DNA from: Cupriavidus gilardii J11
GTDB taxonomy: Bacteria > Pseudomonadota > Gammaproteobacteria > Burkholderiales > Burkholderiaceae
Direction: 5' to 3'
NCBI RefSeq assembly: GCF_007829435.1
Contig: NZ_VLJN01000005.1
Span: 98,849-133,668 of the forward strand
Length of the DNA: 34,820 nt
Shown piece by piece: positions 3,202 through 28,805 of the stretch. The position numbers were made by a program, and so were the translations under genes. The first letter of the stretch is position 1. Each line of letters starts with the position of its first letter. Under the pieces are notes generated by a model. That model made no database searches. It was not told the DNA's origin and worked only from the letters and a program-made list of their open reading frames with translations.

Positions 3202-4212
3202 TCAGGCGGGCATGGCCAGCGGCGGCAGAACAGCGTCACCGCTGACGGTCACGCGATGGCAGCGCACCGCGTGCCCCGGCGCGACCTCGCGTAGCGGCGG
3301 GCATTCGGCGTGGCACAGCGGTTCGGCCACCGGGCAGCGGCCGGCGAAGCGGCAGCCCGGCGGCGGCGCGATGGGGCTGGGTGGATCGCCCATCAGGCGG
3401 ATGCGCCTGGCCGCGCGCTCGCGCCCGCCGCGCACCGTCGGCACCGCGGAACTGAGTGCCACGCTGTAGGGGTGCAGCGGCCGAGAGAAGAACGCCTCGC
3501 GCGGCGCGCGCTCGACGATCTGGCCCAGGTACATCACGGCGATGTCGTCGCAGACGTACTCCACCACCGACATGTCGTGCGAGATGAACAGAAAGGCCAG
3601 CCCGCGCTCGCGCTGCAGGCGCCGCAACAGGTTCAGCATCTGCGCGCGGATGGCGATGTCGAGCGCGGACACCGGCTCGTCGCAGACGATCAGGTCCGGC
3701 TCGGTGGCCAGCGCGCGCGCGATATTGATGCGCTGCCGTTGGCCGCCGGAGAACTGGTGCGGAAACAGCTGGCGCTGTTCCGGACGCAAGCCGACCGCCT
3801 CGAACAGCTCGGCCACGCGCGCGTCGCGCCGCGAAGGCTCGCCGACGTCCATCAGGTCGAGCGGCGCGCGCACGATGTCGCCGGCGCGCTGGCGCGGATT
3901 GAGCGACGAATACGGGTCCTGGAACACCATCTGGATGCGGCGGCGCGCCTGGCGCAGCGTGTCGCCGCGCATCAGCGTGAGATCGCGCCCGGCGAGCCTT
4001 ACCGTGCCGCCGGTAACGGGCGCGAGCCGCGCCACGGCCAGCGCCGTGGTGGACTTTCCCGAGCCGGATTCGCCGACCAACGCCAGCGTGCGTCCGCGCT
4101 CGATCGAGAAGGACAGGCCGTCGACGGCCCGCACCACCGGGGCTGGCCGGAACAGCCGGCCGCCGCGGCGCTTGAAATGGACTCGCAGGTCCTCGACTTC
4201 GAGCAGCTTCAT
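3202..4212 (-). CDS. Peptide/nickel-type ABC transporter ATPase, OppF/DppF type
   Basis: A 336-residue ATPase of the oligopeptide/dipeptide/nickel ABC family. Walker A is GESGSGKST at about 47-55, the signature is [15 protein letters not shown], Walker B is [12 protein letters not shown], and the switch histidine is in FISHDMS. The C-terminal oligo_HPY extension with its cysteine motif ([15 protein letters not shown]) is intact and marks the OppF/DppF branch. It pairs with the OppD-type ATPase just upstream; the ATG at 4212 overlaps that gene's stop as ATGA. An open frame extends further upstream, but it is out of family and runs over the oppD-like gene, so it is not used. It energises import across the inner membrane. 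Confidence 0.93.
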
Positions 4213-5246
4213 GCGCAGGCTCCTTCTGGCGCGGGGAGGGTCGCGACGGCATCGGCTTCCAGGGCCCAGCATGCCGCGCGGTGGTCGTCGCCGACCTCGC
4301 GCAACGCGGGCACCTGTGTCCCGCATTGCGCCATCGCGCGCGGGCACCGGTCGCGGAAGGCACAGCCAGTGCCGAGCTCCCAGATCGACGGCACCACGCC
4401 GGGTATCTCGGGCAGCGGCGGGCGCGTGCGGCGGGCCTCGCCCTCCAGTTCAGGCAGGCAGGCGATCAGGCCCTGCGTGTAGGGATGCGCGGGCCGCTCC
4501 AGCACATCGCGGGTGGCGCCCTGCTCCACCACGCGGCCGCCGTACATCACCACCACGCGATCGGCCATCTCGGATACCGCGCCCATGTCGTGCGTGATCA
4601 GCACGATCGCGGTGCCTTCGCGGGCCTGCAGCTCACGCAGCAGATCGAAGATCTGCGCCTGCACCGTGACGTCGAGCGCCGTGGTGGGTTCGTCGGCGAT
4701 CAGTATCGCCGGCCGGCATGCCAGCGCCATGGCGATCATCACGCGCTGCTTCATGCCGCCGGACATCTGGTGCGGATACTCGTCGATGCGGGCCTCGGGG
4801 GCCGGAATGCCGACGGCGCGCAGCAGTTCGATGGTCCGTGCGCGGGCGGCCTCGCGCGACAGCTTCAGGTGCAGCCGCAGCGATTCGACCAGCTGGCGGC
4901 CCACCGTCATCACCGGATTGAGCGACGTCATCGGTTCCTGGAAGATCATCGCGATGCGGTTGCCGCGGATCTCGCGCATGCGCTGCTCGGTGGCCTGCAG
5001 CAGCTCCTCGCCGGCAAAGCGCACGCTCCCGCCGGTAATGCGGCCCGGCGGTGACGGAATCAGCCGCATGGTGGCGAGCGAAGTCATGCTCTTGCCGCAG
5101 CCGGATTCGCCGACGATGCACAGCGTCTCGCCGGGGCGCACCTGGAAGCTGACGCCGTTGAGCACGCTCGCGGCGCCGCGCGAGGTGCGGAACTCCAGGC
5201 GCAAGTCCTTGACATCGAGCAGGGGTTCTCGGGCGTGAGTCATCAT
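4209..5246 (-). CDS. Peptide/nickel-type ABC transporter ATPase, OppD/DppD type
   Basis: A 345-residue ABC ATPase. Walker A GESGCGKS is at 46-53, followed by the Q-loop [10 protein letters not shown], the signature [15 protein letters not shown], Walker [13 protein letters not shown] and the switch histidine in LITHDMG. The C-terminal oligo_HPY region ([16 protein letters not shown]) is present. The ATG at 5246 overlaps the stop of the preceding permease by four bases; a second ATG follows at 5243. It is the first of two ATPases that normally work as a heterodimer in peptide, glutathione or nickel importers. Both ends are translationally coupled, which suggests fixed stoichiometry of the complex. 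Confidence 0.93.
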
Positions 5247-6184
5247 CGCTCCCTGAGGCGCGGGTTGAGCGCGTCGTTGAGGCCATCGCCGATCAGGCTG
5301 ACCGACAGGACGCTGGCGAAGATCGCCAGTCCGGGAAACACCACCGCCCACCAGCAGGTCAGCAGATAGGGGCGCGCCGAGCCGATCATCAGGCCCCAGC
5401 TCATGCGGTTGGGGTCGCCCAGGCCCAGGAAGGACAGACCCGCCTCGAACAGGATGGCCGAGCCGATCGCCATCGTGGCCGACACCACCAGCGGCGGCAG
5501 TGCATTGGGCAGGATCACGCGCCAGACGATGCGCGCATTGCCGGCACCGATGGAGCGCTCGGCGCGCACGAAGTCCAGGTCGCGGAAGCGCATGAACTCG
5601 GCGCGGGCCAGCCGCGCGGTGGCGGTCCAGGTGGTCAGGCCGATCGCCAGCGAGATCGTCGTCAGAGAGGGCGAGAACAGCGTGACCAGCACCATGGCGA
5701 ACAGCAGCGCGGGCAACACCTGAAAGAACTCCATCACCCGCGTCAGCGCCTCGTCCACCAGGCCGCCGTAGTAGCCGGCCAGCGCGCCGGCCGTCAGGCC
5801 GATGCATACCGACAGCAGCGCCGCCACCACGCCGACCGCGAGGCTGGCGCGGCCGCCGTAGATCAATCCGGTGAGCACGTCGCGGCCGAGCTGATCGGTG
5901 CCCAGCAGCGCATCGGCGTCCCCGGGTGCAGTCTGCGGCGCCGCCACGATGGCGAAGGGGTCGGCCTCGTACAGCACCGGGCCGAACAGCGCCACGAGCA
6001 GGATCAGCGACAGCAGCACGGTGCCCGCCACCGCCGCGCGGCTGCGCAGGAACATGCGCCACGCTTCGCGGGCCGGGCCTGGCGGTGCATGCGCCGCGGG
6101 TGTGGCGCCCGCGGCCGACGCGGCGGCAAGCTCGGCGGCAGCGGCCGGAACGCCCGGTTCCGCAAGGGAAGATGGCTGGCTCAT
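5243..6184 (-). CDS. Peptide/nickel-type ABC transporter permease, DppC type
   Basis: A 313-residue inner-membrane permease. A low-complexity Ala/Pro-rich cytoplasmic N-terminus (about residues 1-40) precedes the first membrane segment ([20 protein letters not shown]). The DppC hallmark [20 protein letters not shown] follows, then the BPD_transp_1 membrane domain with the EAA loop [21 protein letters not shown] that docks the ATPases. It ends in [15 protein letters not shown], typical of this subfamily. The ATG at 6184 overlaps the dppB-like stop as ATGA. The extended N-terminus is unlikely to matter for substrate choice. Confidence 0.92.
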
Positions 6185-7152
6185 GCGCGTATCCTCGGAT
6201 CGATCAGACGGTAAAGCGCGTCGGTGATCTGGTTCATCACCACCACCACGACGGCGGAGAACAGCAGCACACCCAGCACGGTGGGATAGTCGCGGCGCAG
6301 GATGGAGTCGAAGGCCAGACGCCCCAGCCCTGGCCAGTTGAACACGGTCTCGACCAGGATCGCGCCGGCCACCACATTGCCGAACTGCAGGCCGAGCATC
6401 GTCACCACCGGTAGCAGCGCATTGCGCAGCGCGTGGCGATACAGCACGTGGCGCTCTGCAAGCCCCTTCGCGCGTGCCGTGCGGATATAGTCGGAGCCCA
6501 GCACATCGAGCATGCTCGCGCGCGACAACCGGCTGTACTGTGCGAGATAGACCAGGCTCAGCGTCAACGTGGGCAGCACCATGTGCCACGCCACATCGAG
6601 TACGCCGGCCAGGCCTTCGCCGTCCGACGTGACCGAGCGCATGTCGGAGATCGGCAGGATGGGCCAGATCGACGCGAACAGGATCACCAGCATCATGCCG
6701 CTCCAGAACACCGGCGCCGCATGTCCCATCATCGACAGCACGGTGATCGCCTGCGACAGCGCGCCATGCGGTTTGCGCGACGCCAGCACGCCCAGCGCGG
6801 TGCCGAGCAGGAAGGCGGTAACCACGGATGCCAGCACCAGCAGCAGCGTGGCTGGCACCCGTTCGGCGATCAGCCCGCTGACCGGCAGGTTGAAGAAGTA
6901 CGAGAAGCCGAGGTCGCCGTGCAGCACCTTGCCGACGTAGGTGCCGAGCTGTACCCACAGCGGCTGGTCCAGGCCGTACTGCGTGCGCAGCTGGGCGCGA
7001 AGCTCCTCGCTGATGCCGCCCATCGACCCGGCGATGGTCTCGACCGGATCGCCAGGGGCGAGCCGTATCAGCAGGAAGTTCAGCACCACCACGGCGAGCA
7101 CCAGCAGCGCTGCGTGGCACAACTTGCGCAGGAGCGCGAGTAGTTGGCTCAT
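6181..7152 (-). CDS. Peptide/nickel-type ABC transporter permease, DppB type
   Basis: A 323-residue inner-membrane permease of the DppB/GsiC type. It opens with a membrane segment ([22 protein letters not shown]) containing the RLAPGDP motif typical of DppB, has the large periplasmic loop carrying [12 protein letters not shown] and GDLGFSY, and then the BPD_transp_1 domain with the EAA loop ([23 protein letters not shown]). It ends with the family motif [10 protein letters not shown]. It starts nine bases after the binding-protein stop and is translationally coupled to the DppC-type gene. Confidence 0.92.
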
Positions 7153-7161
7153 GGCGGCGCC

Positions 7162-8763
7162 CTACTTCATCCAGACGTCGTCGAACGGCGACGCCGGGCC
7201 CCAGATGGAGGCCGGCACGTTGACCACCCGCTTGTTCGCCACGGTGTGATACGGCGTGTTGTTGATATAGAAGATCGGCAGATCGTCGGTCACGATCTTC
7301 TGGAAGGTGGCGTAGTACGCCTTGCGCTTGGTGGTATCGAGCGTGCTGGCCGCGGTTTCCAGCAGTTCGTCGACCTTCGGGTTGCGGTAGGACTGTGTAT
7401 TGGTCCACACCACCGGCTTGATGTTGGTCGACATATACGTCCGCGCCACGCCGATCACCGGATCGCCCCAGTTGAAGACGTTGTCCATCGTCAGGTCGAA
7501 GTCATGGGCCGCCATGCGCTTGGCCCACGACGCGAAGTCGGCCGACGCGCGCACCTGCACGTTGACGCCGACCTTCTTGAGCTGGGTGCGGATGTACTCG
7601 GCCACGTTCTTCTGCTGCTCGTCGGTGCCCGGCAGATAGTCGATGGTCAGCGTCATGCGCTCGCCGTTGCCGCCCTTCTTGTAGCCCGCTTCGTCCAGCA
7701 ACTGCTCGGCGCGCTTCAGGTCGTAGGCGTAGCGGTGCAGATCGGGCGTGGCGTACGGACTGGTGGCCACGATGGGACCGTCCGCGATCTGCGAGAAGCC
7801 GCCATGCAGCGCCTTGACGATGAAGTTGCGGTCGATGGCATGGGCGATCGCATGGCGCACCCTGGCGTCGGACAGCGGCTTGCGTTCGAGATTGAAGGCC
7901 AGCCAGTTGATGGCGCCGATCCCCTCATAGCCGTTGCGGGTCAGCACCAGATTCGGATTGGCCTGCAGGCGGCGCAGATCGGTGGTCACCGACAGGAACG
8001 GCAGCATCTGGATATCGCCGCGTTCGATGCCCATGGCCAGCGCCTGCGAATCGGGGTTGATGGTGATGACGAGCTTGTTCAGGTAGGGCTTGCCCGGCAG
8101 GAAGAACTTGTCGAAGCGGTTCAGCACGATCCGTTGGCCAGGCACGAACTCGCCCAACCTGAACGGGCCCGATCCCACCACACCCGACGAGTTGGCCGGA
8201 TGGGTGGTGATCTCGCGGCCGTCGCCATAGATGTGCTTTGGCAGGATCGGGCACAGCGCCGGCGACATCGCGAGCAGGATGGCCGGGTGCGGCCGGCTCA
8301 TGCGCACGATGGCGGTGTGCGGATCGGGCGTCTCCACCTTCTCCACCGGGCCCAGCATGGTCTGGAACGGATGCTTGGCCTTGATCGTCATGATCGAGAA
8401 CGCCACGTCCTCCGAGGTGATCGGCTTGCCGTCGTGGAACACCGCGTTGCGGCGCAGGTTCAGCGTCAGCGATTTGCCGTCCTCCGATACCTTCCACGAT
8501 TCGGCCAGGTAGGGCTGCGGATTCCACTTGTCGTCGAAGCGCAGCGGGCTGGCGAACAGCTGCGTGGACGGCATCGCGGTGGCGAGACCCGATTGCACCG
8601 CCCCGTTCAGATGGCGCGGCGATTGGGTCGAGCCGAGCACCAGCGTGCCGCCCGTCTTGGGTGTTTCCGCGGCCGCGGCATGGCCGGCATAAGCAGCCGC
8701 GGTCACGGTGCAGGCCAGCAGCGTGGTGCGCAGCAGCGGCAGCACCGGGGCAAGTCGTTTCAT
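7162..8763 (-). CDS. Periplasmic substrate-binding protein, SBP family 5 (DppA-like)
   Basis: A 533-residue extracytoplasmic solute-binding protein, family 5. The N-terminus (MKRLAPVLPLLRTTLLACTVTAAAYAGHAAAAE) has a basic n-region, hydrophobic core and AXA-type cleavage region and fits a Sec signal peptide. The mature part starts with TPKTGGTLVLG and has family landmarks such as LAESWKVSEDGKSLTLNLRRNAVFHDGKPITSEDVAFS. The ATG at 8763 is supported by GGAG eight bases upstream; the earlier in-frame start at 8823 would hide the signal peptide. It is the first gene of the importer operon. The ligand may be a peptide, an opine-like or another amide compound; the downstream amidohydrolase suggests an amide substrate rather than nickel. 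Confidence 0.92.
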   Translation of the reverse strand: MKRLAPVLPLLRTTLLACTVTAAAYAGHAAAAETPKTGGTLVLGSTQSPRHLNGAVQSGLATAMPSTQLFASPLRFDDKWNPQPYLAESWKVSEDGKSLTLNLRRNAVFHDGKPITSEDVAFSIMTIKAKHPFQTMLGPVEKVETPDPHTAIVRMSRPHPAILLAMSPALCPILPKHIYGDGREITTHPANSSGVVGSGPFRLGEFVPGQRIVLNRFDKFFLPGKPYLNKLVITINPDSQALAMGIERGDIQMLPFLSVTTDLRRLQANPNLVLTRNGYEGIGAINWLAFNLERKPLSDARVRHAIAHAIDRNFIVKALHGGFSQIADGPIVATSPYATPDLHRYAYDLKRAEQLLDEAGYKKGGNGERMTLTIDYLPGTDEQQKNVAEYIRTQLKKVGVNVQVRASADFASWAKRMAAHDFDLTMDNVFNWGDPVIGVARTYMSTNIKPVVWTNTQSYRNPKVDELLETAASTLDTTKRKAYYATFQKIVTDDLPIFYINNTPYHTVANKRVVNVPASIWGPASPFDDVWMK

Positions 8764-23288: not shown

Positions 23289-23303
23289 GCTGCCCTCTCC
23301 CCC
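23289..23303. repeat. Partial copy C of the intergenic repeat
   Basis: GCTGCCCTCTCCCCC, the head of the repeat, abuts the stop codon of the alpha/beta hydrolase. The palindromic arm is absent. It may be a remnant. Confidence 0.4.
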
Positions 23304-24097
23304 TACCGCATCGAATCAATCAACGAAACGATCTCCCACGCCGTCTCCAACGGCCGCTCCATCGGATAAAGATGCCCGCCCTCGACGAAGCGCAGCCGCT
23401 CGCCCACCAGGCGGCGGGTCGCCGCGAGACCCGCCTGCCGCACCTCGCGCGAATGCGTGCCGGCGATGAAGCCCACCGGGAACGGCGTGCCATGCGCCAC
23501 CCGCCGGCCGAGGCTGGCGGGTAGCGTGCGGTAGATCCGGTATTCGACCTCGCGGTCGAAGCGCAGCCGGCGTTCGCCATCATTGCCGGTGGGCTCGGTG
23601 CCATGGATCACATAGTCGCGCAGCACGTCGTCATCCCAGACGGCGAAGCCGGGCTTGGACTTGAAATGCGCATGCGCGGTCTCGGCATCGGGCCAGTGGG
23701 TGCGCCGGCGCTTGGTGGCCGCGGCCGGGCTCGACTTTTCATCCACGCCCAGCCATTGCGCGGCACGCAATAGTCCGGCGCGCCAGCCACCGATCACGGG
23801 CGAATCGAGCATCACCACGCCGCGCACGTATTGGGGCTTGCGCAGCGCCGCCATCAAGGACAGGAAACCGCCCAATGAATGCCCTGCCAGCCAGACGGGC
23901 TCGCGATAATTCCGCTCAATTGAATGCACCAGCTGATGCACCAGGTGCGGCCACTCCCGCGTCACCGGATAGGCCGGATCATGGCCGTAGCGGTCTACCG
24001 CGCGGATCTCGAAGCGATCCTCCAGCGCACTGAAGAGCTTCCGGTATGTGGTGACCGGAAAGCCATTGGCGTGGGAAAAGTGCAGCACGTCGCGCAT
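23303..24097 (-). CDS. Alpha/beta hydrolase, last gene of the Anbu cluster
   Basis: A 264-residue alpha/beta-hydrolase. The nucleophile elbow is GHSLGG with S74; the early HANGFP motif provides the oxyanion region; a C-terminal EGGHLYPMERP supplies the likely catalytic H241, and D97 (MLDSP) or a later acidic residue may complete the triad. A basic insert (about 118-135, SSPAAATKRRRTHW) may be the lid. The ATG at 24097 has GAGGGG upstream and lies 21 bases after the anbu stop, so co-transcription is likely. Substrate unknown; an esterase or amidase role on the product of the cluster is conceivable but unproven. Confidence 0.85.
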   Translation of the reverse strand: MRDVLHFSHANGFPVTTYRKLFSALEDRFEIRAVDRYGHDPAYPVTREWPHLVHQLVHSIERNYREPVWLAGHSLGGFLSLMAALRKPQYVRGVVMLDSPVIGGWRAGLLRAAQWLGVDEKSSPAAATKRRRTHWPDAETAHAHFKSKPGFAVWDDDVLRDYVIHGTEPTGNDGERRLRFDREVEYRIYRTLPASLGRRVAHGTPFPVGFIAGTHSREVRQAGLAATRRLVGERLRFVEGGHLYPMERPLETAWEIVSLIDSMR

Positions 24098-24118
24098 GGT
24101 GCCGGCCCCTCGCGGCGC

Positions 24119-24940
24119 TCAGCCCTCGCCGCGCGCCCGTTCGCGCCGCGCGCGCACCGGCTGGCCCCAGCGGTCGCCGTCGCCCGCCCTTGCCAGCGGA
24201 AATTCGGCGGGTGCGGCGGCGTCCCATTCGGGGTCGGCGATTTCGCCAAAGACCTGCCGCAGCCGTTGGCCCCAGGTGTCGCGGATCATGCGGAAGTACG
24301 CGTTGCGCTCGTCGATATTGACGAAGCGCGTCACGCGCAGCGTGTCGGTCTCATAGACCAGCAGATCGAGCGGCAGGCCCACCGAGATATTGGACTTCAA
24401 CGTGGAGTCCATCGAGATCAACGCGCACTTGGCCGCCTCGTCCAGCGGCATCGCGGGATGAATCACGCGGTCGATGATGGGCTTGCCGTACTTCGCCTCG
24501 CCGATCTGGAAGTAGCAGTTCTCGGGCGTCGCCTCGACGAAGTTGCCGGCCGCATAGATCTGGAACAGACGGGGCCGCTCGGTGCCGATCTGCCCGCCGA
24601 AGATCAGGCTGACATTGAACTCGACGCCGGCATCGCGCAGTGCGTCGGCATCCCGCTTGTACACCTGCCGCACCGCATCGCCCACCACCGAGGCGGCTTC
24701 GAACATGTCGCGCGCGGTCCACAGCGAGCGCTTGTCGTCGCGGCCCTCGGCCAGGATCTGCCGCACCGACTGGCTGATGGCCAGATTGCCGGCTGTCAGC
24801 AGCACGGTCACGCGATCGCCGGGATCTTCGAACACGGTCAGCTTGCGCGCGGTGGAGATCGCGTCGACCCCCGCATTGGTGCGCGAATCCGACAGAAATA
24901 CCAGGCCGGCATCGAGCCGCATGGCTACACAGTACGTCAT
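24119..24940 (-). CDS. anbu: Anbu, proteasome/HslV-related peptidase homologue
   Basis: A 273-residue proteasome-type protease of the Anbu (ancestral beta subunit) family. It begins MTYCVAMRLDAGLVFLSDSRTNAGVD; removal of Met exposes Thr2 as the N-terminal nucleophile, and D18 (LSDSRT) and K33 (ARKLTVF) occupy the catalytic positions equivalent to Asp17 and Lys33 of proteasome beta subunits. Later regions (VTVLLTAGNLAISQSV, AKCALISMDSTLKSN) fit the Ntn-hydrolase fold. The ATG at 24940 is decisive because only it puts Thr at position 2. Known Anbu proteins assemble into open helical rings with little detected protease activity, and no partner unfoldase is known. It follows the transglutaminase-like gene. 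Confidence 0.92.
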   Translation of the reverse strand: MTYCVAMRLDAGLVFLSDSRTNAGVDAISTARKLTVFEDPGDRVTVLLTAGNLAISQSVRQILAEGRDDKRSLWTARDMFEAASVVGDAVRQVYKRDADALRDAGVEFNVSLIFGGQIGTERPRLFQIYAAGNFVEATPENCYFQIGEAKYGKPIIDRVIHPAMPLDEAAKCALISMDSTLKSNISVGLPLDLLVYETDTLRVTRFVNIDERNAYFRMIRDTWGQRLRQVFGEIADPEWDAAAPAEFPLARAGDGDRWGQPVRARRERARGEG

Positions 24941-24967
24941 GATCTTGTCTTGTCTTCGTTGGGTGCG

Positions 24968-24990
24968 GCCGGCGGGCCGTGGCCGCCGGC
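24968..24990 (-). promoter_or_regulatory. GC-rich hairpin in the anbu leader
   Basis: GCCGGCGG and CCGCCGGC form perfect eight-base arms around a seven-base loop, 28 bases before the anbu start in the 154-base gap after the transglutaminase gene. With no U-run it is more likely an mRNA processing or stability element, or an attenuator, than a simple terminator. Confidence 0.45.
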
Positions 24991-25094
24991 ATTGTAGCGT
25001 CGCCGGCTGGCGCGGCACGGACCAAACGGTCACTCTATCGGCCCGGCGCCGCGCGCGTCAACGTGCGATTTGGCGCTGACTCCATGCGCGCCAT

Positions 25095-25916
25095 TCAGGA
25101 GATGACTTCGATGACGATCTCGACCGACATGGTTTCGGTGCCGCCACCCTCGCGCACGCCGCGGATCGGCGCGGCCGAGCGGTAATCGCGCCCCACCGCG
25201 AGCCTGACATGACGTGCGTCGGTGAAGCACCCGTGCGTGACGTCGATGCTGCACCACAACTCACGGTCGGTGTCCACGCAGACATCGGCCCAGGCATGGC
25301 TGGCGAGATAGGTGGCGGCGGGGTCGTGGAAATAGCCGCTGACATACCGCGCCGGAATGCCGAAGGCACGGCATGCCGCCACCATGACCTGTGCCTGGTC
25401 CTGGCATACGCCCGCGCCCAGACCGAACGCCTCCGCGGCGCTGGTGCCGACGTCGGTGGTGTTGGGCTGGTAGCGCACGCGCTCGCCGATCGCCTGCGCC
25501 AGCGCCAGCAGCGCCGCCGTGCCATGGCCGGCCGCAAGGTAGGGCGCGGCGAACGACACCAGCGCCTCGGGCGCCGCGGTCAAAGGCGTGCTGGAGCGGA
25601 AATACAGCGGCGACACGCGCGCCTCGCCCTCGGGCGGAGCGTCGCCGAACAGTGGTTCGGATGCCGGCAACGGTCGCGGCTCCACCTCGCCGCTGGCGAC
25701 GATGGTGATCGTGTCCGCGGGCCGCGCCAGCGTGAAGTGGTGGACGATATTGCCGAAGCCGTCGACCGCCTCCGACAGGTTGCCCGGCACCGACAGTTGC
25801 CAGCCCCGCACCTCCTGCAACGGTCCGGAGCGCGGCGCGAGGCGCAGTTCATGGACGCTGCGCACGACCGGCTCGGCATAGCGATAAACGGTGCGGTGGT
25901 GAATTCGGTATGTCAC
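25095..25916 (-). CDS. Transglutaminase-like cysteine protease homologue of the Anbu cluster
   Basis: A 273-residue protein with a bacterial transglutaminase N-terminal domain (about 1-80, YRIHHRTVYRYAEPVVRSVHELRLAPR) and a transglutaminase-like core. The triad is complete: C171 in GAGVCQDQAQVM, H206 in SHAWADV and D224 in SIDVTHG. The core fold is used for peptide-bond cleavage or amide/isopeptide exchange. No signal peptide is seen, so it acts in the cytoplasm. It is one of the four genes that recurrently accompany anbu. A palindromic repeat lies between it and the alpha-E gene upstream. The target is unknown. Confidence 0.92.
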   Translation of the reverse strand: MTYRIHHRTVYRYAEPVVRSVHELRLAPRSGPLQEVRGWQLSVPGNLSEAVDGFGNIVHHFTLARPADTITIVASGEVEPRPLPASEPLFGDAPPEGEARVSPLYFRSSTPLTAAPEALVSFAAPYLAAGHGTAALLALAQAIGERVRYQPNTTDVGTSAAEAFGLGAGVCQDQAQVMVAACRAFGIPARYVSGYFHDPAATYLASHAWADVCVDTDRELWCSIDVTHGCFTDARHVRLAVGRDYRSAAPIRGVREGGGTETMSVEIVIEVIS

Positions 25917-25978
25917 GATGGGTGAAGCGGTCGGCGCAGGGGCGCTCGGCCCTGGATGGTTACTGCCCTCTCCCCCGG

Positions 25979-26005
25979 CCCCTCTCCCGCGTTGCGGGAG
26001 AGGGG
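25979..26005. repeat. Palindromic intergenic repeat, full copy B
   Basis: Twelve-base perfect arms CCCCTCTCCCGC (25979-25990) and complement (25994-26005) around GTT, preceded by ACTGCCCTCTCCCCCGG. It lies in the 115-base gap between the alpha-E and transglutaminase genes, that is, inside the presumed Anbu operon, and would form a very stable hairpin in the transcript. Confidence 0.85.
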
Positions 26006-26031
26006 AGAAAGGGCGGGGCGCGAGGGCATCG

Positions 26032-26985
26032 TCAGGACGCCAGCGGCGGCACCAGGAAATCCCGGCTGATGCCGCTGCCCAGATCGCCGATGCGCTCCAG
26101 GAAGCTGGTCAGGTAGGCATGCAGGCCGACCGCGAAGATGTCGTCGATGCGCGCGTATTTGAGTTCGGCGTGCAGTTTACCAGCCTGACGCTCGGTCTCG
26201 GCCGATTGCTGGTTGCGAACCAGCGCGAGGATGGCGACGACCTCGTCCATGCTCGCCACCAGCGAACGTGGCATGTCCGGCCGCAGGATCAGCAGCTCGG
26301 CGACGCGTTCCGGCGTGATCACGGTGCGGTAGATCTTGCGGTAGACCTCGAAGCCGGACACCGAACGCAGCACCGCTGCCCAATGGTAGAAGTCGTTACC
26401 GACCGGCGCGGGCGTGCCGTCACCCACTCCGGCCGAGTGGAACTTGACGTCGAGGATCCGCGCGGTATTGTCGGCGCGCTCCAGAAAGGTGCCAAGCCGC
26501 ATGAAATGGAACGCGTCGTCCTTCAACATGGTGCCGAACTGCACACCGCGCGCCAGATGGGAGCGGAACTTGACCCATTCGAAGAACTGCGGCGGGTCGT
26601 CGTGCAGCACGCCGTCCGCGATCATGCGCGGCACGTCCAGCCACGTGGTATTGAGCGTTTCCCACACCTCGGTGGTCAGCGAGCCCCGCACCGCCCGCGC
26701 GTTCTCGCGCGCGGCGCGAAGGCAGCTCATGATCGATGACGGGTTGCTCATGTCGCGCACCATGAAGTCGATCACATCGTCGCGCGACAGCAGGCCGTAC
26801 TTGTGGTCGAACGCGCGGGTCAGTTCGGAGATGTCGAGCATCGCCCACCAGCCCTGCTCCGCCACTTCCAGCGATTGCGGCAGCAGCGAGGTCTGGTAGT
26901 TGACATCGAGCATGCGCGCGGTGTTTTCCGCGCGCTCGGTATAGCGCGCCATCCAGAACAGATGGTCGGCGGTGCGGCTCAACAT
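26032..26985 (-). CDS. Alpha-E domain protein (DUF403)
   Basis: A 317-residue all-helical alpha-E protein. It contains two copies of the motif ERAxNTARxLDV, at residues 17-28 (ERAENTARMLDV) and 169-180 (ERADNTARILDV), and a weaker ARENARAVR at 92-100, which shows an internal duplication. The ATG at 26985 (MLSRTADHLFWMARY) has GGGAGA upstream. The frame stays open far upstream, through a hexanucleotide repeat and into the ATP-grasp gene, but those residues are not family-like. The family always travels with the circularly permuted ATP-grasp protein and has been suggested to be its partner. The biochemical role is unknown. Confidence 0.93.
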   Translation of the reverse strand: MLSRTADHLFWMARYTERAENTARMLDVNYQTSLLPQSLEVAEQGWWAMLDISELTRAFDHKYGLLSRDDVIDFMVRDMSNPSSIMSCLRAARENARAVRGSLTTEVWETLNTTWLDVPRMIADGVLHDDPPQFFEWVKFRSHLARGVQFGTMLKDDAFHFMRLGTFLERADNTARILDVKFHSAGVGDGTPAPVGNDFYHWAAVLRSVSGFEVYRKIYRTVITPERVAELLILRPDMPRSLVASMDEVVAILALVRNQQSAETERQAGKLHAELKYARIDDIFAVGLHAYLTSFLERIGDLGSGISRDFLVPPLAS

Positions 26986-27051
26986 GGTTCGGTCTCCCGG
27001 GGACTGCGCGGCATGGGCAAGAAACGCATGCCGATGATCGGCTTGTGCTGC

Positions 27052-27096
27052 GATGTTGTTGTCGATGTCGTTGTCGATGTCGATGTCGATGTCGTT
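27052..27096. repeat. Hexanucleotide tandem repeat in the alpha-E leader
   Basis: Fifteen consecutive triplets of the types GAT, GTC and GTT, dominated by the unit GTCGAT with GTCGTT variants, fill 45 bases between the ATP-grasp stop and the alpha-E start. It is A/T-richer than its surroundings. On the coding strand and in frame with alpha-E it would read as an Asn/Asp/Ile run, but it is upstream of the likely start. Hexamer slippage would alter leader length without changing frame. Confidence 0.85.
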
Positions 27097-27131
27097 GGCC
27101 AACACGGGCCCGGCGACGGATGCGCCCGCGG

Positions 27132-28604
27132 TCAGCGCTCCAGCACCCACGTGTCCTTGGTGCCGCCGCCCTGCGAGGAATTGACCACCAGCGAGCCTTC
27201 GCGCAATGCCACGCGCGTCAGGCCGCCGGGAACCATGCGCACCTCCTTGCCCGACAGCACGAAGGGCCGCAGGTCGATATGGCGCGGTGCGATGCCGGAC
27301 TCGACGTAGGTGGGACAGGTCGACAGCGCCAGCGTCGGCTGCGCAATGTACTGGTGCGGTCGCGCCTTGACCACGTCGCGGAAGGCCTCGATTTCCGCCC
27401 GCGTGGCGGCGGGGCCGACCAGCATGCCGTAGCCGCCCGCGCCGTGCGTTTCCTTGACGACCAGTTCGTCCAGATGGTCCAGCACGTACCGCAGGTCGTC
27501 CGGCCGCCGGCACATGTATGTCGGCACATTGGACAGCAGCGGCTCCTCGCCGAGATAGAAGCGGATCATCTCGGGCACATAGGGGTAGATCGACTTGTCG
27601 TCGGCCACACCGGTGCCGATCGCATTGCATATCGTGACATTGCCGGCGCGGTACACCGACAGCAGCCCTGCGGCGCCCAGCGACGAATCCGGGCGGAATA
27701 CCAGCGGATCGAGGAAGTCGTCATCGACGCGGCGGTAGATCACGTCGATGCGCTGCGGGCCCTGCGTGGTCCGCATATACAGGTGCTCGTCCTGCACGAA
27801 CAGATCGCTGCCCTCCACCAGCTCCACGCCCATCTGCTGAGCCAGGAAGGCGTGCTCGAAATAGGCGGAGTTGTACATGCCGGGGGTCAGCACCACGACG
27901 GTGGGATCCGCGATGGCGGCGGGCGACACGCTGCGCAGCATGTCGAGCAGCAGGTCGGGATAGTGGGCCACCGGCGCCACCCGGTTGCGGGCGAACAGCT
28001 CGGGGAACAGCCGCATCATCATCTTGCGGTTCTCGAGCATGTAGGAGACGCCGGACGGTACGCGCAGGTTGTCCTCCAGCACATAGAACTCGCCCTCGCC
28101 CGCGCGCACCACGTCGATGCCGGCCACGTGCGCATAGATATCGCGCGGCACGTCGATGCCCAGCATCTCCGGACGGTACTGCGCGTTGTCGTAGACCTGC
28201 TCGGCGGGTATCACGCCGGCCCGGATGATGTCCTGGCCGTGGTAGATATCGTGGATGAAGCGGTTCAGCGCGGCCACGCGCTGGCGCAGTCCGAGTTCAA
28301 GGGTCTGCCACTCCGACGCGGGGAAAATGCGCGGAATCACGTCGAACGGAATGGTCCGCTCGGTGCCGCTATTGTTTTCGTCCTTGTCGCCGTACACGGC
28401 AAACGTGATCCCCACGCGCCGGAACACCAGATCGGCATCGGCGCGCTTGTTGGCCATGATGGCCTCCGACTGCCGCGACAGCCAGTCGGCGAAATGGCGG
28501 TAATGCGGCCGCACCTGCTCCTGCGACAGCGGCTGGCCTGCCCGGATGGCCGCGGGCGCCCCCTCCTGCCCATCCATCATCTCGTCGAAAAACCTCGCCG
28601 CCAT
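27132..28604 (-). CDS. Circularly permuted ATP-grasp protein (DUF404/DUF407)
   Basis: A 490-residue circularly permuted ATP-grasp type 2 protein. Visible motifs include the N-terminal IPFDVIPRIFPASEW, GEFYVLEDNLRVPSGVSYMLENR (about 171-193), the nucleotide/metal segment KETHGAGGYGM (384-394), RHIDLRPFVL (441-450) and the C-terminal SSQGGGTKDTWVLER. ATP-grasp enzymes join a carboxylate to an amine through an acyl phosphate, so this protein is the likely ligase of the cluster. The ATG at 28604 has AGGA nine bases upstream; the upstream extension from 28718 is rejected as low-complexity. It is first in the presumed operon, 200 bases after gntK. Substrates are unknown. Confidence 0.93.
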   Translation of the reverse strand: MAARFFDEMMDGQEGAPAAIRAGQPLSQEQVRPHYRHFADWLSRQSEAIMANKRADADLVFRRVGITFAVYGDKDENNSGTERTIPFDVIPRIFPASEWQTLELGLRQRVAALNRFIHDIYHGQDIIRAGVIPAEQVYDNAQYRPEMLGIDVPRDIYAHVAGIDVVRAGEGEFYVLEDNLRVPSGVSYMLENRKMMMRLFPELFARNRVAPVAHYPDLLLDMLRSVSPAAIADPTVVVLTPGMYNSAYFEHAFLAQQMGVELVEGSDLFVQDEHLYMRTTQGPQRIDVIYRRVDDDFLDPLVFRPDSSLGAAGLLSVYRAGNVTICNAIGTGVADDKSIYPYVPEMIRFYLGEEPLLSNVPTYMCRRPDDLRYVLDHLDELVVKETHGAGGYGMLVGPAATRAEIEAFRDVVKARPHQYIAQPTLALSTCPTYVESGIAPRHIDLRPFVLSGKEVRMVPGGLTRVALREGSLVVNSSQGGGTKDTWVLER

Positions 28605-28751: not shown

Positions 28752-28765
28752 CTTGCATAAGCAAG
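28752..28765. promoter_or_regulatory. Short inverted repeat in the gntK/ATP-grasp gap
   Basis: CTTGC-ATAA-GCAAG, a perfect five-base inverted repeat, lies about 40 bases after the gntK stop and about 150 bases before the ATP-grasp gene. It could be an operator for the Anbu cluster or a weak gntK terminator. Nothing else recognisable was seen in this 201-base gap. Confidence 0.3.
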
Positions 28766-28805
28766 ATGTCTGCCAACCAAGGTGGCGACGGGCGCTGGCC
28801 GACAG

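Follow-up and report, generated by a model that had tools for sequence, protein, structure and literature searches.

An Anbu operon in Cupriavidus with a predicted sigma54-type site before its ligase gene and a separate promoter-like element before Anbu

We analysed a 34,820-nucleotide (nt) stretch of the Cupriavidus gilardii J11 genome (contig NZ_VLJN01000005.1, positions 98,849 to 133,668), here called the window, for the organization and likely function of the Anbu gene cluster that it carries. On the minus strand, from 23303 to 28604, the window encodes in order an ATP-grasp ligase, alpha-E, a transglutaminase-like enzyme, the proteasome-like protein Anbu and an alpha/beta hydrolase (Table 1). 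This content and order had been assigned in an earlier annotation made from the sequence alone (the sequence-only reading) and was borne out by Pfam and PDB matches. The ligase aligned over residues 26-489 to PDB 3n6x (730 bits, E 1e-218) and Anbu matched 5loy, 5nyw, 5nyj, 5nyf and 5lox with E values from 2e-92 to 2e-63; one of these five is a designed sequence. The locus is an Anbu operon of an already published type: its first four genes, rightly taken by the sequence-only reading as a known recurrent set, are in the same order the four-gene set of Pseudomonas and Yersinia (Iyer 2009 as cited in PMC5666114 and PMC6376114). Here and below, published articles are cited for excerpts of their text.

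Table 1. Coordinates of the cluster genes and of two predicted promoter elements in the window
Feature	Position	Strand	Support
sigma54-type -24/-12 promoter element TGGCAGACATCTTGCT, predicted only	28760-28775	minus	exact TGGCAN6TTGCW
Circularly permuted ATP-grasp amide ligase, 490 amino acids (aa)	27132-28604	minus	PF14403 E 5e-170; PF04174 E 4e-158
alpha-E, 317 aa	26032-26985	minus	PF04168 E 3e-101
Transglutaminase-like cysteine enzyme, 273 aa, GTG start	25095-25916	minus	PF08379 and PF01841; PDB 3isr E 6e-8
Candidate Anbu promoter, TTGACG-N18-TAGAGT	25032-25061	minus	3 promoter-like matches in region vs 1.0 expected
Anbu, proteasome-like N-terminal nucleophile (Ntn) protein, 273 aa	24119-24940	minus	PF00227
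alpha/beta hydrolase, 264 aa, GHSLG at 72-76	23303-24097	minus	PF12697 E 2e-13

The catalytic residues of Anbu were all intact, with T2, D18 and K33 (start methionine counted) corresponding to Thr1, Asp17 and Lys32. These had been named correctly in the sequence-only reading, as had the intact C171 of the transglutaminase-like enzyme; the histidine and aspartate that it placed at 206 and 224 are actually H207 and D225. The ATP-grasp motifs were judged solely through the near full-length alignment to PF14403 and 3n6x. In mature numbering the S1 pocket of the window Anbu consists of T20, A30, T48, L52 and S55, and four of these five residues are identical to the type 1 reference (T20, F30, T48, L52 and S55; PMC5666114). 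Position 30 is Ala in place of the Phe found in P. aeruginosa and Y. bercovieri Anbu. Judged by this pocket the window Anbu appears type 1-like. The likeness to the Pseudomonas and Yersinia operon covers the four families, their order and the catalytic residues, and in four residues out of five the S1 pocket.

Upstream of the ligase gene we found a predicted sigma54-type element whose first base lies 171 nt before the ATP-grasp ATG. Sigma54 promoters share a GG at -24 and a GC at -12 with 10-nt spacing, and the window element has both doublets at this spacing. The pattern TGGCAN6TTGCW occurred exactly once in the window against 0.18 expected; because 15 of 100 shuffles also contained at least one match, the window alone is weak evidence for a sigma54 site. 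Loci for comparison were chosen by hand and comprised 20 of the 34 other same-genus genomes with Anbu, 40 further fetched stretches including lone-Anbu cases, and 80 loci from the genome collection. The ATP-grasp gene could be scored in 20/20, 31/40 and 75/80 of these respectively, the rest having no ATP-grasp match of at least 45% identity or too little upstream DNA. The element was conserved by score in all 22 Cupriavidus loci (the window, L121 and 20 others) and was exact in 21, the exception being L074, where TGGCT replaces TGGCA. In the Cupriavidus alignment it stands as an island within a poorly alignable spacer. Using score weights from the general sigma54 consensus and a threshold of 0.88 fixed after the first scores were seen, we detected a site upstream of the ATP-grasp gene in 73 of 126 loci (Cupriavidus 20/20, other fetched loci 13/31, genome-collection loci 40/75), compared with 2 of 344 for other genes pooled (alpha-E 0/132, transglutaminase 1/85, Anbu 1/88, hydrolase 0/18, pyrG 0/21) and 257 of 15,000 random windows. 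Loci and genomes, here and below, are related, so that fractions and p values do not describe independent events. Together these counts suggest that a conserved sigma54 -24/-12 site precedes the ligase gene across Cupriavidus.

Genome-wide, TGGCAN6TTGCW matched 24 times and the reversed pattern 10 times, and exact sites were present upstream of urtA and ntrC in the same genome. Besides the window site there were 23 exact sites, and for 10 of these the downstream protein was typed. Four were typed above curated cut-offs as ntrC (TIGR01818), urtA (TIGR03407), a TorF-type porin (TIGR02001) and rpoE (TIGR02939), and six under curated cut-offs as nitrilase-like, SsuA-like (two), aminotransferase, P450-like and monooxygenase-like.

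Anbu appears to carry a promoter-like element of its own within Cupriavidus. A strict CTA[GA]AAT motif was present at most 150 nt from Anbu in 21 of 22 Cupriavidus loci; the window is the exception and has a variant, its -10-like TAGAGT sitting where the alignment of the 22 loci shows (C)TAGAAT. The strict motif was found before none of the ATP-grasp, alpha-E or transglutaminase genes (0/22 each) or the hydrolase genes (0/16) of the genus; among 6,600 random windows, 52 contained it. Because Anbu has this conserved element in the genus, the cluster seems unlikely to be transcribed simply as a single unit. Nor is it tightly packed, as the intergenic spacers measure 146, 115, 154 and 21 nt from ATP-grasp to hydrolase. 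In another genome (locus L095, genome G050) Anbu adjoins the ATP-grasp and alpha-E genes in divergent orientation, a layout that implies separate promoters.

The distribution of the genes was assessed by searching genomes at three levels. Within Cupriavidus, Anbu was present in 35 of 36 genomes searched (our own counted), and the sole miss was 54% complete. A draw of 150 genomes from the order, our own included, contained Anbu (called at E 1e-20) in 76, alpha-E (called at E 1e-40) in 72 and both in 67 (Fisher p 3e-26, phylogeny ignored). Of the nine Anbu genomes that had no alpha-E at this cut-off, eight yielded it in a profile search, raising the count to 75 of 76, and lone Anbu was rejected as a common arrangement. 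A draw of 150 genomes from the phylum contained Anbu in 53, alpha-E in 83 and both in 52 (Fisher p 3e-17, phylogeny ignored). When the distinct Anbu genomes of both draws were pooled (four genomes were shared), alpha-E was present in 123 of 125, so that the co-occurrence check proposed with the sequence-only reading came out far beyond chance with phylogeny uncorrected. The relation is almost one-sided, with Anbu depending on alpha-E: alpha-E occurred without Anbu in 31 of 83 phylum and 5 of 72 order genomes, and Anbu without alpha-E in 1 of 53 and 1 of 76. The last two genomes (G265 and G153) also had no PF14403 match and represent assembly gaps or lone Anbu. Distances were counted at one place per genome in the 67 order genomes with both genes, with second Anbu copies dropped and the alpha-E copy of G211 taken from Anbu's contig. 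Anbu and alpha-E lay within 2 kilobases (kb) on the same strand in 49 genomes, within 2 kb on opposite strands in 3, at 2-5 kb in 3, at 5-15 kb in 4, farther apart on one contig in 3 and on different contigs in 5.

The hydrolase behaved differently. In Cupriavidus, 16 of 22 loci (the window, L121 and 14 of the 20 fetched) differ from the Pseudomonas and Yersinia operon in an extra hydrolase gene after Anbu, and the remaining 6 had no hydrolase match. In the order draw a hydrolase (E 1e-20) was found in 24 of 150 genomes, 18 with Anbu and 6 without, a mild enrichment (Fisher p 0.008). Adjacency to Anbu was seen in only 4 of these 18, namely our own genome and G078, G141 and G313, which belong to one family other than that of Cupriavidus. 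In G078 and G141 the distance from alpha-E to the Anbu-hydrolase pair is 0.27 and 1.7 Mb, and in G313 alpha-E and the pair are on different contigs. With adjacency patchy and the pair distant from alpha-E elsewhere, the hydrolase was rejected as a fifth core gene and counts as a neighbour linked to Anbu in two lineages. Membership as given by the sequence-only reading therefore holds for the first four genes, the alpha/beta hydrolase being lineage-specific. In G078 and G141 (loci L091 and L093) the Anbu-hydrolase pair, far from ATP-grasp and alpha-E, adjoins a gene that we take by eye to be mutS-like.

Alpha-E consists of two tandem repeats with corresponding Glu-Arg (ER) motifs, ERAENTAR from residue 17 and ERADNTAR from residue 169. 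When the two halves (1-150 and 151-317) of an alignment of 23 sequences were compared with hhalign, 146 columns aligned with a probability of 99.3 (E 1e-20); three split points all agreed, in a test that had no negative control. From this comparison alpha-E appears to have arisen as an internal duplication. Its invariant or near-invariant positions include E17, R18, R24, E169, R170 and R176. An AlphaFold2 model of alpha-E built from 66 sequences was all helical (predicted local distance difference test (pLDDT) 94, predicted template modelling score (pTM) 0.92). No PDB sequence match was found for alpha-E, and with an E cut-off of 0.001 Foldseek matched it to nothing in BFVD or in PDB, where the best E was 0.19. 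Membership of alpha-E in a solved fold was thus not supported by these searches; this is no proof of a new fold, since all-helical folds are easily missed.

Natural fusions of ATP-grasp and alpha-E, single chains of 820-994 aa, were found in the flanks of 17 of the 80 genome-collection loci (for example L142 and L188). They share both domains and the ER motifs with the window proteins; their ATP-grasp part is 31-38% identical to the ligase of the window. Both ER pairs were invariant in 16 aligned fusions (L167, the seventeenth listed, was omitted), being E538 R539 and E686 R687 in the first. The L142 fusion was modelled from 16 sequences (pLDDT 80.5, pTM 0.77). Foldseek ranked 3n6x at the top for this model, followed by glutathione, homoglutathione, glutathionylspermidine and trypanothione synthetases at 9-14% identity, and the list contained a single RimK-domain protein, 5i47, at E 0.28. 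Glutathionylspermidine synthetase/amidase and the eukaryotic-type glutathione synthetase are thus the nearest solved folds to the ATP-grasp module of the fusion after 3n6x, a likeness of fold. To our knowledge no alpha-E or Anbu has been described with these synthetases. The window ATP-grasp groups by fold with the glutathione and glutathionylspermidine synthetases through PF14403, 3n6x and the model of the sister-family fusion. The modelled fold of L142 suggests an enzyme that ligates a short peptide through an amide bond and does not fix the substrate. The Yersinia ATP-grasp protein liberates phosphate from adenosine triphosphate (PMC6376114).

Three further features of these loci were recorded. 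The gap between the alpha-E and transglutaminase genes contains at 25982-26002 the palindrome CTCTCCCGC-N3-GCGGGAGAG, which occurred at 233 genome sites against 0 for the reversed control and is a dispersed repeat. A short tandem run of GACATC/GACAAC was visible by eye at about 27051-27096, between the ATP-grasp and alpha-E genes. In one Cupriavidus genome (locus L068, genome G017) 3.4 kb (about 3862-7233) separates Anbu from the transglutaminase gene.

Nitrogen control of this operon is already published, with support from P. putida data. Growth on nitrate as compared with ammonium raised PP_2685 (Anbu) by log2 4.44 and PP_2688 (ATP-grasp) by log2 3.99, and among isolated promoters that of PP_2688 was induced 3.7-fold by nitrogen limitation and that of PP_2685 was nitrogen-agnostic (PMC8050072). 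In another study nitrogen limitation of the wild type induced PP_2688 14.7-fold, PP_2687, which by gene order is alpha-E, 11.0-fold and PP_2686 (transglutaminase) 12.6-fold, with Anbu at 1.12-fold in the wild type, 4.81-fold in a relA/spoT mutant and 1.45-fold in an rpoN mutant (PMC7801951). In B. cenocepacia a cluster with separate DUF404/407 and DUF403 genes and two transglutaminase-like genes belongs to the sigma54/NtrC regulon (PMC5491218). This cluster (I35_5080-83) has the ATP-grasp and alpha-E genes in common with the window and differs in a second, large transglutaminase-like gene and in that Anbu is not among its four genes (PMC5491218). These domains have also been associated with urea metabolism in marine metagenomes (PMC3597751). 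The sequence-only reading had called the purpose of the system unknown, which stands in so far as the excerpted literature names no substrate or product; the link of the P. putida operon to nitrogen limitation had already been made.

We propose that the operon encodes a nitrogen-starvation-induced ligase of the glutathionylspermidine-synthetase-like kind, whose product is processed by the transglutaminase-like enzyme and Anbu, a reading that we regard as evenly poised between right and wrong. On nitrogen shortage the sigma54 promoter would induce the ligase, alpha-E and transglutaminase-like genes, and Anbu would additionally be transcribed from its own sigma70-type promoter. ATP-grasp and alpha-E would form an amide as glutathione or glutathionylspermidine synthetase does, by coupling a short peptide through its carboxylate to an amine or an amino acid, and the transglutaminase-like enzyme and Anbu would transfer, trim or hydrolyse the ligase product. 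The E. coli glutathionylspermidine synthetase/amidase, which makes and breaks one amide, offers an analogy for such a cycle. That Anbu is nearly always accompanied by alpha-E, which itself can lack Anbu, is expected if Anbu acts on the product of the pair. Within this scheme four points are inferred, namely what class of substrate is used, what alpha-E does, in which direction the Anbu step runs and that the promoters are active in Cupriavidus.

Several observations weigh against this proposal. In P. putida the rpoN mutant kept the induction of PP_2688, PP_2687 and PP_2686 (19.6-, 16.0- and 14.2-fold), and urtA likewise was still induced in it (PMC7801951), which argues against sigma54 dependence in that species unless the mutant is unsound. 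Nor is Anbu simply uncoupled from the other genes, because its mRNA rose 11.1-fold and 4.0-fold in a third P. putida study (PMC3325844) and by log2 4.44 in the nitrate comparison. The ATP-grasp site was absent from 53 of the 126 scored loci, including 3 of 3 Polynucleobacter loci and 9 of 11 loci that we take to be Oxalobacteraceae. Within the genome 9 of the 23 other exact sites fall inside a same-strand open reading frame, and the pattern finds nitrogen genes yet is not nitrogen-specific, since RpoE, a P450-like protein and an aminotransferase are among the 10 proteins typed. No NtrC-like TGCAC-N5-7-GTGCA palindrome beating shuffles was found in the 250 nt above the sigma54 site (117 nt in L068) of 22 Cupriavidus upstream regions, a search that a degenerate site could escape. 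The strict CTA[GA]AAT motif was present in 0 of 67 Anbu loci beyond Cupriavidus. The fold comparison rests on a sister-family fusion model of moderate confidence. Finally, Anbu of Y. bercovieri (YbAnbu) bound no operon partner specifically and cleaved no tested peptide in the excerpts of PMC6376114.

Other explanations were weighed against the same evidence. In a protein-tagging system ATP-grasp and alpha-E would modify proteins with a peptide or an amino acid, and Anbu would remove the tag or degrade the tagged proteins in the manner of a deubiquitinase or a small proteasome, as already proposed (PMC6376114, PMC5666114). Anbu is described there as a proteasome relative with a reactive Thr1, and its dependence on the ligase pair would fit tagging equally well. 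There is, however, no unfoldase among the cluster genes, Anbu was inactive on the substrates tried in the same excerpts, casein included, and the ligase fold is closest to small-peptide ligases of the glutathione-synthetase type, with the RimK-domain 5i47 reaching only E 0.28; we consider tagging unlikely. A cursory look for small substrate proteins, in which open reading frames of at least 60 aa were called in 60 loci and the window and 11 loci were viewed, found none in the cluster. We think it quite improbable that the operon serves nitrogen scavenging, in which the transglutaminase would deamidate protein glutamines, Anbu would degrade proteins and ATP-grasp would recycle the products. The induction in P. 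putida agrees with such a role, and PMC6376114 contains a version of the idea, but it is ATP-grasp and alpha-E, not Anbu, that persist alone, the opposite of the pattern expected were proteolysis central to the system.

Anbu might also be a connectase-like transpeptidase or ligase whose Thr1 passes the acyl group to an amine in place of water, so that the operon would build and not degrade. Connectase is itself a proteasome homologue that ligates (PMC8665760), with a Thr1 and no known unfoldase partner, and the Thr1 of P. aeruginosa Anbu was modified by epoxomicin with no hydrolysis observed (PMC5666114). Connectase is, however, a monomeric archaeal enzyme with its own insertion of two helices, which the excerpts of PMC8665760 describe for connectase and not for Anbu, and they report no ligation by Anbu; a connectase-like Anbu seems to us a rather doubtful prospect. 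That the five genes are mere neighbours with no common function would agree with core gaps of 115-154 nt, with separate promoter-like elements and with the 8 of 67 order genomes in which alpha-E and Anbu are more than 15 kb apart or on separate contigs. Anbu and alpha-E nonetheless occurred together in 67 of 76 order genomes (75 after the profile search), and 49 of the 67 carry them on the same strand no more than 2 kb apart, which makes this the least credible account by far. It is disfavoured for the core four and may hold for the hydrolase. We favour the nitrogen-induced peptide-amide ligase, its product processed by the transglutaminase-like enzyme and Anbu, over tagging, scavenging proteolysis and a connectase-like Anbu.

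A literature search found no report of the genus-wide sigma54 element, the separate Anbu element or the alpha-E duplication, the Hervas papers and Iyer 2009 being outside its reach. The regulatory anatomy of the operon and the duplication of alpha-E are the additions made here. Tentatively, the operon may be a nitrogen-starvation circuit of two separately controlled halves, in which a sigma54-driven ligase and alpha-E would build an undescribed peptide amide and Anbu would act on this product by hydrolysis or by connectase-like transfer. If this were so, Anbu would be an amidase or transferase for one dedicated metabolite and not a protease, which would explain the lack of detected peptidase activity. 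Alpha-E, which carries the ER motif twice and matched nothing in PDB, is a good target for structure determination, and the predicted sigma54 site, the Anbu element and the one-way dependence of Anbu on alpha-E make the purpose of this system directly testable.

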